NCBI RefSeq assembly: GCF_020037015.1 | Contig: NZ_JAIQDE010000028.1 | Coordinates: forward strand, 62,001 to 126,000 | From: Corallococcus sp. AS-1-6 | GTDB lineage: Bacteria; Myxococcota; Myxococcia; Myxococcales; Myxococcaceae | Reading direction: 5' to 3' | DNA length: 64,000 bases | Part shown: piece after piece, positions 15,006 through 62,281 of the stretch | Layout of the letters: every line of letters begins with the position of its first letter | Position numbering within the stretch: position 1 is the stretch's first letter | Program-made: the position numbers and the translations under genes | The notes under the pieces: model-generated | Told to the model about the DNA's origin: nothing | The model's input: only the letters and a program-made list of their open reading frames with translations | The model's database searches: none

Positions 15006-15221
15006 CCGGAATCGAACAGTCCCCAGTCCCGAGGAGCGAACGGTTGTTTTTCTGCTTGCAGGTCAAGCGAACTCCCGGGTGGGGCGCACGGAAGCCGGGA
15101 ATTCCCGGCCCGGGGTGGCCGGGGTGGGTGGAAACGGGGTAGGGACGCCGCTTTCGTCAAAGGGCCGGTGACAGATTTCCGGGGCACCGGTGTTCCCCTG
15201 GCCAACCGGGAGGCGTGCGCG

Positions 15222-15701
15222 GTGTCCGTCGATGTGGAGGCCTATTACCGACGCTATGGGCCCCAGGTGCTCCGGCGCTGCCGCTTCCTGCTGCGCGACG
15301 AGGAACAGGCCGTGGACGCCATGCATGACGTGTTCGTTCAACTGCTGCGCTACCAGGCCGCGCTGAAGGACGCCGGGCCCTCCAGCCTGCTGCATCAGAT
15401 CGCCACCCGCGTGTGCCTCAACCGCCTCCGCGGCGCGAAGCGGCGCCCCGAGGACCGCGACGATGAGCTGGTGCTCCGCATCGCCGCGTCCGGCGACACC
15501 GAGGCGCGCACCGCCGCCCGGGGCCTCCTGGACCGCCTCTTCGGCCGCGTCCCCGCGTCCAGCCGCGACATCGCCGTGCTCCACCTGGTGGACGGCATGA
15601 CGCTGGAGGAGACCGCCCGCGAGGTGGGCCTGTCCGTGTCCGGAGTGCGCAAGCGCCTCCGGGCCCTGTCCGCTGTCCTGCAGGAGCTGGAGGCCGCATG
15701 A
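15222..15701 (+). CDS. ECF-type RNA polymerase sigma factor
   Basis: This 159-residue sigma-70-family factor has region 2 at about residues 5-70 (YYRRYGPQVLRRCRFLLRD, AVDAMHDVFVQLLR) and region 4 at about 100-155 (LDRLFGRVPASSRDIAVLHLVDGMTLEETAREVGLSVSGVRKRL). GTG 15222 is chosen because GGGAGG lies eight bases upstream; an in-frame GTG at 15168 would add 18 residues. The next gene overlaps its stop by four bases and encodes a membrane protein with an anti-sigma layout, so the factor is probably held inactive until an envelope signal arrives. The third gene is an exported caspase-like protease, a probable target of the regulon and part of the same transcript. Confidence 0.92.
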   Translation: MSVDVEAYYRRYGPQVLRRCRFLLRDEEQAVDAMHDVFVQLLRYQAALKDAGPSSLLHQIATRVCLNRLRGAKRRPEDRDDELVLRIAASGDTEARTAARGLLDRLFGRVPASSRDIAVLHLVDGMTLEETAREVGLSVSGVRKRLRALSAVLQELEAA

Positions 15702-16540
15702 CGTCCCCCCACCGCACCCCGGACTGGCTGCTGGAGCGAATCGCCCTGGGAGAGCTGCCCCCGGACGAGCTCGCCGCCGCCCGCGACCGCCTGTCCCGCG
15801 AACCGGACGGCCCCGCCCGCCTCGCCGCCCTGGAGGCCGACTCGCGCGCCACCCTGGAGGCCCTGCCCCCTGACCGCGTCGCCCGCGAGGTGCAGGCCCG
15901 CTTCGCCCGCGCCGGCTCGCCCGCCGCCACGCCCCGCGCCGAGGCCCCTCCGTCGCGCCCTTCCTGGCGCTTCCTGCCCGCCCTGGTGCCGGTGCTCGCC
16001 GCCGCGACCCTCGTCGTCCTCGTGCGGCCGGGGGCGTCGTCCCAGCAGCAGGAGGCGCGCGACCCCTGGGCGGCGACGGGCACCCCCGGCGTCCTGGAGC
16101 CCACGCGCAGCAAGGGGCTTCAGCCCCGGCTCGACGTGCACCGCCAGGCCGGCACCCGCACCGAGCACCTCACCGACGGCGCCCCCGCCCAGGCCGGTGA
16201 CGTGGTGCAGTTGTCGTACACCGCCGCCGGCCACGCCCACGGCGTCATCCTCTCCGTGGATGGCCGGGGCACCGTCACCCCGCACCTGCCCGCGCTGGGG
16301 GACACGTCCGCGCCCCTGGAGCGCGGCGGCTCGCACCTCCTGCCCCGCGCCTACGAGCTGGACGACGCCCCCGGCTTCGAGCGCTTCTTCCTCGTCACCT
16401 CGGACGCCGCCTTCGACCTGGAGGGCGTGATGGCCGCCGCGCGCGTGCTCGCCGCGTCCCCCGAGGCGCGCACCGCGCCGCTGACCCTGCCCGCGGGCCT
16501 GGGCCAGACCTCCTTCCTGCTGGAGAAGCCCTCCCCATGA
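15698..16540 (+). CDS. Putative anti-sigma factor with periplasmic DUF4384-like domain
   Basis: This 280-residue protein begins with a helical cytosolic segment (about 1-75; PDWLLERIALGELPPDE resembles zinc-less anti-sigma N-termini). A Pro-rich linker and one membrane helix at about 92-110 (FLPALVPVLAAATLVVLV) follow. The C-terminal periplasmic domain, about 135-275, has the AGDVVQLSY, HGVILSVDGRGTVTPHLP and LPRAYELDDAPGFERFFLVTS segments characteristic of DUF4384. DUF4384 is often found with caspase-like domains. Here it sits between the sigma factor and the caspase gene with four-base overlaps on both sides. The likely job is to sequester the sigma factor and sense the envelope. It lacks the HxxxCxxC zinc motif of ZAS anti-sigma factors. 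Confidence 0.8.
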   Translation: MTSPHRTPDWLLERIALGELPPDELAAARDRLSREPDGPARLAALEADSRATLEALPPDRVAREVQARFARAGSPAATPRAEAPPSRPSWRFLPALVPVLAAATLVVLVRPGASSQQQEARDPWAATGTPGVLEPTRSKGLQPRLDVHRQAGTRTEHLTDGAPAQAGDVVQLSYTAAGHAHGVILSVDGRGTVTPHLPALGDTSAPLERGGSHLLPRAYELDDAPGFERFFLVTSDAAFDLEGVMAAARVLAASPEARTAPLTLPAGLGQTSFLLEKPSP

Positions 16541-18801
16541 GAGCGCTCGTCATCCTCCTGTTCACGCTGGGCGCGGCCACCCCCGCGCGCGCCGCCGAGG
16601 CCGCGCCCGTGCGCCGGCTGGCCCTGCTCGTGGGCGTCAACGACGGCGGCCCGGAGCGCGTGCGGCTGCGCTACGCGGAGACGGACGCGAAGGCCTTCTC
16701 CACGGTGCTGTCAGAGCTGGGCGGCGTGCTGCCCCAGGACCGCGTGCTCCTCACGGACGTGGACCGCGCGGGCGTGCTCGCCGGCTTCGACCGCGTGCGC
16801 CGCCTGGCGGAGGGCGTCCGCACCGCGGGGGCCCGCCGCGTGGAGGTGCTGCTGTACTACTCCGGCCACTCGGACGACGAGGGGCTGCTGCTCAAGGGCC
16901 AGCGCCTGGACTACGGCGAGCTGCGCCGCTCACTGGAGGGGCTGCCCGCGGACGTGCGCATCGCGGTGCTGGACTCGTGCGCGTCCGGCGCGTTCGCGCG
17001 CAAGAAGGGCGGCGTCTCGCGGCCCGCGTTCCTGGTGGACTCCGCCATCCAGGTGAAGGGCCACGCCATCCTCACCTCGTCCAGCGCGGACGAGGCGTCG
17101 CAGGAGTCGGACCGGCTGGGCGGCTCGTTCTTCACGCACCACCTGCTGTCCGGCCTGCGAGGCGCCGCGGACGTCACCCACGACGGCCGCGTCACCCTCA
17201 CGGAGGCCTACCAGTTCGCCTTCCACGAGACGCTCTCGCGCACCGAGCGCACGCAGGGCGGCGCGCAGCACCCCAACTACGACATCGAGCTCGCCGGCAC
17301 CGGCGACCTGGTGATGACCGACCTGCGCGCCACCACCGCGGGCCTGGTCCTCACCGAGCCGCTGGAGGGCCGCCTGTATGTTCGCGACGCGGTGGGCACG
17401 CTGGTGGTGGAGGTGCAGAAGCAGTCCGGCCGCGCCACCGAGCTGGGCCTGGCCCCCGGCGCCTACCGCGCCCGGCGCGAGTGGGACGGCGGCGTGTCCG
17501 AGGCGGCCTTCACGCTGAAGGAGGGCATGCGCACGCCGCTCGCGCCCGGCGACTTCCTGGGCGTGGGCCACGAGGCCACCGTGATGCGCGGCGGTGGCGG
17601 CGGCATGTCCTTGTCTCCGCAGGGGCGCGTCCAACTGCCGGTGAACCTGAGCCTGGTGCCGTCGATGAGCACCAACACGCTGCGGGCGGGCCGCGCGCCG
17701 GTGGAGAACCGCTTCGCGCTGGGCATCGTCAACGGCGGCGCGGCGCTGGGCGGCGGCCTGGCGCTGGGCCTGGCGGGCAACGTGTACGACGCGGAGGTGG
17801 CCGGCCTGGCGCTGGCGCTGGGCTTCAACACGTCCGGCGGCGACGTGGACGGCGGCCAGTTGTCGCTGGTCACCAACGTGGCGGGCGGCGCGGTGCGCGG
17901 TGCCCAGGCGTCGCTGGGGCTCAACGTGGCCAACGGGGACGTGGACGGTATCGGGCAGTGGGCCCTGGGCGCCAACGTGGCGCGCGGCGCGCTGGGCGGC
18001 GTGCAGGCGGCGCTGGGCGCCAACGTCACCACGGTGGACGCCACCGGGGTGCAGTTGTCACTGGGTGTCAATCACGCCAACGGCACCCTGAAGGGCGTGC
18101 AGTTCACGCTGGGCGCCAACTCCGTGACGACGGCCGCGCGGGGCATCCAGGGGGCGGTGCTGCTCAACCGCGCGCCGTCCCTCACCGGCATGCAGTTGGG
18201 GTTGATCAACGTGGGCGGCGACGTGTCCGGCATGCAGTTGGGGTTGATCAACGTCGCGGACACGGTGCACGGCATGCAGTTGGGGCTGGTCAACGTCTCC
18301 GACGAGGTGAGCGGCGTGCCGGTGGGCCTGGTCTCCTACGAGAAGAAGGGCCAACTGCACCTGGAGCTGTTCGGCAGCGACGTGCAGCTCACCAACCTGG
18401 CGCTGAAGTTCGGCGGCAGGCACTTCTACACGACGCTGCTCGCGGGCATCGGCCCGGACGACCGCTTCCAGCGCTTCAGCCTGGGGCTGGGCCTGGGCGG
18501 GCACATCCCGCTGGGCTCGCGCTTCTGGGTGGACGTGGACGTCGCGGCCAGCCAGGTGCTGTCCACGCGGGATCCGTTCTCCAGCGCGTCCAACACCCTG
18601 CTGTCCCAGGCGCGCGCCATGCTGGGCTTCCAGGTGATGCCCCGGCTGGCCGTGTTCGCCGGCCCCACCTACAACGTGGCCTTCGCCTGGGGCACGCCGG
18701 AGTTCGCGAAGCTGACCACGCTGCCGGTGCGCTCGCACACCCTGGGCACGGACACGCGCATGCAGCGCTGGCCCGGCTTCCAGGTGGGCGTGCGGCTCTG
18801 A
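16537..18801 (+). CDS. Exported caspase-fold (C14) protease fused to surface-repeat domain
   Basis: The protein has 754 residues. A signal peptide (cleavage near ARA-AEA, residue 20) leads into a caspase-like domain at about 25-265, with the catalytic histidine H111 (YYSGHSDDEG) and cysteine C148 (LDSCASGAF), both intact. A beta-rich linker (about 265-390) is followed by about 230 residues of short repeats of the form GxQxxLGxNxxxGxxx. These resemble the LA_2272-type surface repeats and probably form a beta-solenoid. The C-terminal 120 residues (HFYTTLLAGIGPDDRF to VGVRL) look like outer-membrane beta strands. An exported, envelope-bound caspase contrasts with the usual cytosolic ones. It is co-transcribed with the sigma/anti-sigma pair. 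The substrate is unknown. Confidence 0.85.
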   Translation: MRALVILLFTLGAATPARAAEAAPVRRLALLVGVNDGGPERVRLRYAETDAKAFSTVLSELGGVLPQDRVLLTDVDRAGVLAGFDRVRRLAEGVRTAGARRVEVLLYYSGHSDDEGLLLKGQRLDYGELRRSLEGLPADVRIAVLDSCASGAFARKKGGVSRPAFLVDSAIQVKGHAILTSSSADEASQESDRLGGSFFTHHLLSGLRGAADVTHDGRVTLTEAYQFAFHETLSRTERTQGGAQHPNYDIELAGTGDLVMTDLRATTAGLVLTEPLEGRLYVRDAVGTLVVEVQKQSGRATELGLAPGAYRARREWDGGVSEAAFTLKEGMRTPLAPGDFLGVGHEATVMRGGGGGMSLSPQGRVQLPVNLSLVPSMSTNTLRAGRAPVENRFALGIVNGGAALGGGLALGLAGNVYDAEVAGLALALGFNTSGGDVDGGQLSLVTNVAGGAVRGAQASLGLNVANGDVDGIGQWALGANVARGALGGVQAALGANVTTVDATGVQLSLGVNHANGTLKGVQFTLGANSVTTAARGIQGAVLLNRAPSLTGMQLGLINVGGDVSGMQLGLINVADTVHGMQLGLVNVSDEVSGVPVGLVSYEKKGQLHLELFGSDVQLTNLALKFGGRHFYTTLLAGIGPDDRFQRFSLGLGLGGHIPLGSRFWVDVDVAASQVLSTRDPFSSASNTLLSQARAMLGFQVMPRLAVFAGPTYNVAFAWGTPEFAKLTTLPVRSHTLGTDTRMQRWPGFQVGVRL
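18187..18312 (+). repeat. Three tandem 42-bp repeats inside the caspase-repeat gene
   Basis: Three consecutive 42-base units begin GGCATGCAGTTGGGG and encode GMQLGLINVGGDVS, GMQLGLINVADTVH and GMQLGLVNVSDEVS. The first 25 bases of units one and two are nearly identical, so they reflect recent duplication within the longer, more diverged repeat array (protein residues about 430-600). A degenerate fourth unit (GVPVGLVSYE) follows. Copy number here could change by slippage without breaking the frame. Confidence 0.85.
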
Positions 18802-60889: not shown

Positions 60890-62281
60890 TCACAGGCCGT
60901 AGGCTTCCAGCAGCCGCAGCCACACCTCGCTCACGGTGGGGTACGACGGCACCGCGTGCCAGAGCGTGTCCAGCGTCACCTCGCCCGCGACGGCGATGGT
61001 GGCCGCGTGGATCATCTCGCCCACGCCCGGCCCGGTGAACGTGGCGCCCACGATGACCCGGCGCTGCTCGTCCACCACCAGCTTGGCGGTGCCCTTGAGG
61101 TCCTTGCCCATGACGGACGCGCCGGCCACGTCGCCCAGCGCGTACTGCACGGTCTTCACCGGCACGCCCGCCTTGCGCGCCCGCTCCTCGGTGAGGCCCA
61201 CGCTGCCCACCTGCGGGTGCGTGAAGATGACCTGCGGCGTGGCCTTCGCGTCCGCCCACGCCTTCGCGGGCTTGCCCAGCAGGATGTCGCCCAGCAGCCG
61301 CGCCTGGTACTTGCCCATGTGCGTGAGCAGGTTGCGGCCGTTCGCGTCGCCGCACGCGTACAGCCAGCCGCCGTCCACGCCCGTGGCGCGGAGCTGATCA
61401 TCCACCTCGATGGACGCGCCGGGCTTGAGCCCCACCGTGTCCAGCCCCAGGTCGTCCGTGCGCGCGGTGCGGCCCATGGCGACGAGCAGCGCGTCCGCGC
61501 GCAGCGTGTCCCCGCCGGTCAGCGTGATGGTGTACTCGCCCTGGGTGCCGGAGCGCTGCACCTTGGTGGCCTGCGTCTCCAGCAACACGCGCACGCCGGA
61601 GTCGCGCAGCGCCTCGGCCACCTGCTCGCCCACGAAGGGTTCGAAGCGCTTGAGCACGCGCGGCCCGCGCTGCACCAGCGTCACCTCCGAGCCCAGCTCG
61701 CGCCACGCCTGCGCCAGCTCCACCGCCTCCACGCCGCCGCCCAGCACCACCAGCCGGCCCGGCACGGCCTTGGCGCCGGTGCCCTCGCGGTTGTCCCAGG
61801 GCTTGGAGTCCTTGAGCCCCGGGATGTCCGGCAGGCGCGGCTTGCTGCCGGTGGCGATGACGACGGCCTGCTTCACGTCCAGCTCGCGCACCTTGCCGTC
61901 CTTGCCGGTGACGGCCACCTTGCGCGGGCCGGTGAGCCGGCCGTGGCCACGCATCACGGTGAGCTTCGCGCCCTCCGCCCACTTCACCTGGGACCTGTCG
62001 TCGTAGCCGGACACCATCTGGTCGCGGTGCTTGAGCACGGCGTCCGCCTTGAGCGGGCCCTGGATGAGCTCGCGCACGCCGGGCGTGTGCTTCGCGAGCC
62101 ACAGCGCCTCGCCGGGGTGCAGCAGCGCCTTGCTGGGCATGCAGGCCCAGTAGGAGCACTCGCCGCCCAGGAGCTCGTGCTCCACCAGCGCGACCTTCAA
62201 ACCCCCCGCCGCCGCGCGCGCGCCCGCGTTCTCGCCCGCGGGACCCGCCCCAATCACCACCACGTCGAAAGTCTCGGCCAT
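60890..62281 (-). CDS. Pyridine nucleotide-disulfide oxidoreductase (Lpd/MerA-like)
   Basis: The 463-residue flavoprotein has an FAD-binding GAGPAGENAG (residues 11-20), the redox pair C42-SYWA-C47 in GGECSYWACMPSKALL, a second nucleotide motif (VLGGGVEAVELAQAWRELG, about 178-196) and a dimerisation domain to the end. The family's catalytic His (HAHPT) is replaced by Tyr (PSYPTVSE), as in mercuric-reductase relatives, so it is not a standard lipoamide dehydrogenase. The start at 62281 has AGGAGG five bases upstream. It is monocistronic, 58 bases from the interrupted glycosyltransferase gene. Its substrate is unknown. Confidence 0.92.
   Translation of the reverse strand: MAETFDVVVIGAGPAGENAGARAAAGGLKVALVEHELLGGECSYWACMPSKALLHPGEALWLAKHTPGVRELIQGPLKADAVLKHRDQMVSGYDDRSQVKWAEGAKLTVMRGHGRLTGPRKVAVTGKDGKVRELDVKQAVVIATGSKPRLPDIPGLKDSKPWDNREGTGAKAVPGRLVVLGGGVEAVELAQAWRELGSEVTLVQRGPRVLKRFEPFVGEQVAEALRDSGVRVLLETQATKVQRSGTQGEYTITLTGGDTLRADALLVAMGRTARTDDLGLDTVGLKPGASIEVDDQLRATGVDGGWLYACGDANGRNLLTHMGKYQARLLGDILLGKPAKAWADAKATPQVIFTHPQVGSVGLTEERARKAGVPVKTVQYALGDVAGASVMGKDLKGTAKLVVDEQRRVIVGATFTGPGVGEMIHAATIAVAGEVTLDTLWHAVPSYPTVSEVWLRLLEAYGL

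Follow-up and report, generated by a model that had tools for sequence, protein, structure and literature searches.

An outer-membrane caspase as the candidate site-1 protease for the anti-sigma factor of its own operon in Corallococcus

What would an exported caspase-fold protease do beside a sigma factor and an anti-sigma factor? This question is raised by a three-gene operon on the forward strand (15222..18801) of the stretch of DNA that we analyzed, the 64,000 nucleotides from position 62,001 to 126,000 of contig NZ_JAIQDE010000028.1 of Corallococcus sp. AS-1-6 (hereafter the window, whose own numbering we use). A first-pass annotation, made from the letters alone, had read it as an extracytoplasmic function (ECF) sigma factor, an anti-sigma-like protein and a secreted caspase-like protease. 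By computing gene order and its conservation, fold, export signal, catalytic dyad, promoter with its targets, and a motif shared between protease and anti-sigma factor, we arrived at a module whose wiring is well supported. On balance, we lean slightly towards a reading in which the caspase, sitting in the outer membrane, cuts both the anti-sigma factor and its own linker after the Lys of an RxKG motif, thereby freeing a sigma factor that amplifies its own expression.

The genes for the sigma factor (15222..15701, 159 amino acids), the single-pass anti-sigma factor (15698..16540, 280 amino acids) and the outer-membrane caspase (16537..18801, 754 amino acids) are joined by two ATGA overlaps of 4 bases each, at 15698-15701 and 16537-16540, exactly as first described. 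The first product matches Sigma70_r2 (5e-9) and r4_2 (2e-6) in a Pfam scan and the ECF superfamily in NCBIfam; it has sigma-70 regions 2 and 4 only, and its assignment as an ECF sigma factor stands. The best named matches are Corallococcus exercitus, terminator and llansteffanensis.

The first-pass annotation had staked its reading on finding the same gene order across myxobacteria, and the order is found there and far beyond them. Every Corallococcus ortholog with enough contig carries the trio, and a contig scan for relatives, of which the best 80 of 538 were used for the cross-phylum comparison, includes Myxococcota, Fibrobacterota, Spirochaetota, Gemmatimonadota, Aminicenantes, Fermentibacteria, Goldiibacteriota and others. 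An ECF sigma gene lies 0.2–1.2 kb upstream of the caspase in 56 of the 76 loci with enough upstream sequence; in nearly all of these the anti-sigma gene stands between the two, and the 4-base overlaps are mostly kept. Gene order, barrel and catalytic dyad all recur in several phyla, the repeat-plus-barrel C-terminus of the caspase being conserved along with the trio, and the sigma, anti-sigma and caspase genes are the only ones that recur across phyla in the flanks. Loci without a sigma gene are mostly those of Myxococcaceae. The label of 'orphan' caspase was rejected for those checked (L059, L062-L065, L067, L068), which still have promoter, anti-sigma and caspase. Separate sigma/anti-sigma operons with the trio promoter are found elsewhere in genomes that have such loci (L197, L205, L210), as if the one system had been divided between two places.

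The third gene product begins with a signal peptide (about residues 1–20, 16537..16596), and a signal-like N-terminus is seen in 153 of 160 homologues. It is followed by a metacaspase-like catalytic domain (residues 25–262, 16609..17322) that matches the Peptidase_C14 hidden Markov model at 1e-10 in a Pfam scan. In the full-length AlphaFold2 (AF2) model, where the domain spans residues 22–265, its best fold match is Arabidopsis metacaspase 4 (6w8r, Z 18.5, root-mean-square deviation (rmsd) 3.0 over 202 residues), and profile searches gave meaningful matches to metacaspases only. Homologue alignment confirms the active-site positions given earlier, His111 (16867..16869) and Cys148 (16978..16980); rather than being lost in homologues, an outcome that would have spoken against the earlier reading, the two residues occur together in 161 of 162 distinct homologues, at identities down to 27%. 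Caspase fold and His-Cys dyad are those of the Peptidase C14B metacaspases. In a profile alignment, D50 and D146 fall on Asp95 and Asp211, the S1 pocket acids of TbMCA2 (PMC4357240), and are kept in 159 and 160 of the 162 homologues, respectively. Since these metacaspase S1 acids are conserved, cleavage is expected after Lys or Arg.

Because the AF2 model of the whole protein reached a predicted template modelling score (pTM) of 0.44, the C-terminal 400 residues were refolded alone with 48 homologues, which gave a predicted local distance difference test score (pLDDT) of 93.6. Here, repeats of the LA_2272 type form a beta-solenoid (about residues 390–600, 17704..18336) that leads into an eight-stranded beta-barrel (residues 604–754, 18346..18798), which in fold searches matches the OprF N-domain (Z 14.1), NspA (13.3) and OmpA (12.8). 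We limit the former to 'beta-solenoid-like', since its matches to GlmU and LpxD have rmsd >9 Å. The repeats once described as surface-type resemble LA_2272; the model scores 20 bits against a 25-bit cut-off (2 stretches), leaving the whole protein below it. The beta-rich C-terminus of the first description is the barrel itself. With an export signal and a closed amphipathic C-terminal barrel, the protein has the features of an outer-membrane beta-barrel protein, and the barrel is predicted to anchor the caspase in the outer membrane. An OmpA-like barrel has its two termini facing inwards; together with the signal peptide, this analogy suggests that the caspase domain would hang in the periplasm. 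Thus export of the 'secreted' protease holds, but free secretion gives way to a predicted outer-membrane tether with a periplasmic catalytic domain.

The second gene product matches the anti-sigma model NF052375 at 2e-7, below the model cut-off. Hydropathy gives it one transmembrane helix (about residues 92–109, 15971..16024), as in nearly all homologues, and with its gene beside the sigma gene it has the layout of a membrane anti-sigma factor, with a predicted role in binding sigma. Beyond the helix, the Pfam scan and an alignment of the family (52 members, mean column identity 32%) delimit a putatively periplasmic DUF4384-like domain (16130..16447). While the single pass claimed for this protein is borne out, DUF4384 (PF14326) itself scores 0.047 here, below the cut-off, and is matched by 10 of the 52 family members (best 9e-6). 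The domain is part of a distinct family of anti-sigma factors, all of which have a K-G close to the membrane.

This dipeptide, K139-G140, is the only invariant one in the family; it lies about 30 residues beyond the transmembrane helix and is usually part of TRxKG, in the window T136-R-S-K139-G140 (16103..16117), our candidate cleavage site. Caspases self-activate by cutting their intersubunit linker. In a comparable place, nine residues past the catalytic Cys, the caspases of the trio carry T/A-R-x-K-G-G at the opening of a poorly ordered linker (low pLDDT, residues 155–177), which in the window is R155-K-K157-G-G (16999..17013), a candidate autoprocessing site. K-G is found at Cys+9 in 132 of 134 anti-sigma/caspase pairs, and in both proteins T and R stand at matching positions ahead of it. 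Other caspase operons encode divergent anti-sigmas of the zinc-finger type, and these too have RxKG just outside the membrane. Across the anti-sigmas surveyed, K-G is present in 137/137 that adjoin a caspase, whereas 8 of the 20 that do not adjoin one lack it, counting the misplaced KG of one (L187) as absent; after clustering at 50% identity the figures are 58/58 versus 4/8 (p ~1e-4). On the tree, K-G was lost three times, and in none of the three lineages does a caspase lie next to the anti-sigma.

Upstream of the orthologs there is a single conserved block, GTRACAG-N13-CGGTGTT, which lies 27 bp ahead of the sigma start and reads GTGACAG-N13-CGGTGTT in the window (15168..15194, forward strand). 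In 39 of 55 distant trios the motif stands upstream of the sigma gene with at most 2 mismatches and the same spacing, where shuffled sequence leads one to expect 0.08. A generic RpoE-like motif (GGAAC/CGTC) was also tried upstream of the sigma gene and did no better than chance. The conserved block indicates, as by far the simplest reading, an autoregulated ECF operon, a point that the first-pass annotation had put up for testing, and we infer that the trio's own sigma factor reads this promoter. The block also bears on the gene call: a longer sigma frame would start at GTG 15168, inside the predicted promoter. Because of this overlap, and because a likely ribosome binding site, GGGAGG (15208..15213), lies 8 nt ahead of GTG 15222, the original start at 15222 is the better one.

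The whole 9.5 Mb genome holds three exact copies of the promoter. One precedes the operon itself, one precedes a gene for a caspase-less repeat-barrel paralogue (470 amino acids from its likely start) with a gene for a DUF2807 lipoprotein behind it, and one lies 48 bases before the start of a fatty acid desaturase gene (C65:249230; L226 1501-2769). There are 2–6 copies in each of 15/15 Corallococcus genomes and 20 in seven other Myxococcaceae, against one control match in the latter; a reversed control pattern had 0 matches across 25 genomes. Nearly all gene-assigned sites are within ~120 bases of a start, most at 11–76, and the majority of their targets encode exported or envelope proteins, among them repeat-barrel proteins, DUF2807 lipoproteins, a putatively exported alpha/beta hydrolase, an ExbB adjoining a sigma-less caspase gene, and a protein with TonB_C and Plug domains. 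No lytic gene was found among the assigned targets. The predicted regulon looks like envelope remodelling, and the lysis role suggested at first finds no support in it.

Some of these targets are of interest in their own right. The repeat-barrel paralogue and its DUF2807 neighbor are found behind the trio promoter at L039 (5458-8385; C43 of the same genome) and at L225, and the desaturase is a hint that the sigma factor might tune membrane lipids. At L052 (5388-12275) and L243, ExbB/ExbD and more TonB-system-like genes come after a caspase-barrel gene that has no sigma gene, and the trio promoter sits between the caspase and ExbB genes.

These observations can be assembled into one sequence of events. 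In the resting state, the ECF sigma factor would be held at the inner membrane by the single-pass anti-sigma factor, while the eight-stranded barrel would sit in the outer membrane, its beta-solenoid stalk holding the metacaspase-type Cys protease out into the periplasm. Activated by a periplasmic or outer-membrane signal, the caspase would cut its own linker after Lys157 and the anti-sigma factor after Lys139, just outside the inner membrane, in what amounts to a site-1 cut. Ordinary intramembrane proteolysis could then release the sigma factor, which would act at GTRACAG-N13-CGGTGTT promoters to transcribe both the operon that encodes it and a small set of envelope genes. The active site is intact, and the motif of the anti-sigma factor is identical to that of the protease's own linker; this site-1 protease model is the most economical one. 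We give even chances to the broader claim that a transmembrane anti-sigma factor has the outer-membrane caspase as its dedicated site-1 protease, with one RxKG motif for self-activation and substrate, and that this represents a widespread and previously undescribed class of envelope signalling. Several points weigh against the model. The K-G association rests on three independent losses, for which a sign test is underpowered; some anti-sigmas without a neighboring caspase keep RIKG (L142-L144); and the promoter might be read by another sigma factor. The residue two before the Lys seemed to covary between the two proteins (odds ratio 22, p 8e-8), but this signal vanished in a tree-based independent-pair analysis that allows for phylogeny, and is not used as evidence.

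The main rival turns cause and effect around: some other site-1 protease would free the sigma factor, and the caspase would be an output that processes envelope or foreign proteins. The caspase gene stands last in an autoregulated operon, which speaks for this reading, and both the Myxococcus loci, which have anti-sigma and caspase without sigma while a sigma/anti-sigma operon lies elsewhere, and the sigma/anti-sigma pairs without an adjacent caspase fit it. However, one promoter is common to the separated Myxococcus loci, so that action of the caspase in trans is possible, and an output role leaves unexplained both the T-R-x-K-G common to anti-sigma and caspase linker and the loss of the anti-sigma K-G only where no caspase is adjacent; we consider it rather unlikely, though the strongest of the rivals. 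Signalling might also proceed by contact, as in FecA or FoxA, with the caspase domain binding the anti-sigma factor to protect or expose it and RxKG docking uncut as a pseudosubstrate. Order and topology are indeed those of a sigma factor, an anti-sigma factor and an outer-membrane transducer, and in Fox signalling the transducer's signalling domain shields the anti-sigma factor from proteolysis (PMC11637429). Mere binding would not require the dyad that is kept in 161/162 homologues, and we give contact signalling a small chance.

A similarly small chance goes to a purely structural K-G that starts the DUF4384-like domain and resembles the caspase linker by coincidence. The dipeptide does sit just ahead of the domain's first strand and is kept by some orphan anti-sigmas, but this would not account for its retention in the very divergent zinc-finger-type anti-sigmas, nor for the T and R that precede it at matching positions in anti-sigma and caspase. 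Highly improbable, finally, is a lysis or death circuit in which the exported caspase kills the cell or its neighbors in development or predation. The caspase fold, the lysis known from myxobacteria and the suggestion of surface fratricide for exported metacaspases (PMC3501461) would suit it; against it stand the conservation of the module in Fibrobacter, Spirochaetes and Gemmatimonadetes, a predicted regulon free of recognized lytic genes, and the lack of a PADLOC defence match for caspase or anti-sigma. An anti-phage defence role was rejected in the same search, in which the sigma factor had only a weak sub-domain match. The first-pass interpretation is kept in part, as regards conservation, dyad, export and autoregulation; simple secretion gives way to the predicted tether, and nothing was found in favor of lysis.

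The trio can be set against several known systems. FecI-FecR-FecA and FoxI-FoxR-FoxA likewise consist of an ECF sigma factor, a single-pass anti-sigma factor and an outer-membrane barrel with an N-terminal periplasmic domain, and likewise switch on their own outer-membrane gene. They differ in having a 22-stranded TonB receptor where the trio has an 8-stranded barrel, an STN signalling domain in place of a metacaspase, and a FecR-type rather than a DUF4384-like periplasmic domain. Pfam scans found no match to TonB-receptor, STN or FecR domains in the trio proteins or the anti-sigma family, so the trio is not classed with FecIRA, though by analogy it may work like such cell-surface signalling. 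From RseA/DegS and RsiW-type proteolysis, where an envelope protease makes the site-1 cut outside the inner membrane as proposed here, the trio departs in that its protease is a caspase-fold Cys enzyme with an outer-membrane anchor, whose gene is part of the sigma operon. In CASP/Craspase (Cas7-11, Csx29, Csx30, CASP-sigma), a caspase-fold protease cuts a sigma-inhibiting protein and frees an ECF sigma factor (PMC10028731), but that protease is a cytosolic, CRISPR-RNA-triggered CHAT protease, in contrast to an exported C14 metacaspase type without CRISPR. The Pfam scan found no CHAT domain in the trio, nor does any flanking gene recur beyond sigma, anti-sigma and caspase. ECF54 sigma factors with CHAT or subtilase neighbors have been proposed to be controlled by a neighboring caspase-fold protease, albeit without an anti-sigma factor (PMC8999054), whereas the trio has a dedicated one. 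Sigma-70 genes were reported in 4/5 M. xanthus metacaspase operons, and sigma factors in those of Anaeromyxobacter, Haliangium, Sorangium, Ralstonia and Fibrobacter (Asplund-Samuelsson 2012, PMC3501461); the text of that work does not mention an anti-sigma factor, and describes no barrel, promoter, shared motif or mechanism. None of the papers searched describes this anti-sigma family, a caspase of this outer-membrane architecture, the promoter or the motif common to both proteins, though the main ECF classification may contain a group assignment.

To our knowledge, few native substrates of bacterial metacaspases and orthocaspases have been identified, and most guesses at what these enzymes do point to cell death. 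The trio supplies specific candidates for the substrate and its cleavage site, as well as for a promoter and a regulon. If the site-1 protease model is true, the native substrate of a metacaspase can be read from the genome, and in several phyla caspase proteolysis drives transcriptional signalling across the envelope, alongside the cytosolic CRISPR-linked caspase/sigma systems yet distinct from them.

Relatives of the trio come in further forms. The same genome has at least 5 more sigma/anti-sigma/caspase sets with different caspase C-termini (L038, L040, L041, L042, L044), the caspases of L041 and L042 being lipoprotein-like with barrel-like ends. Elsewhere, sigma and anti-sigma genes occur with no caspase found and with the juxtamembrane K-G lost (L151, L159, L160, L162, L150, L161); the protease that regulates these may be a different one. 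Some Corallococcus (L142-L144) have the family's anti-sigma alone, without sigma or caspase, at a place where the Archangium-like genome G022 (L045) has the full trio. Two contigs recorded as Comamonas sp. KCTC 72670 (L065, L085) resemble Myxococcus DNA in gene order and sequence, and the name on the record is probably wrong.

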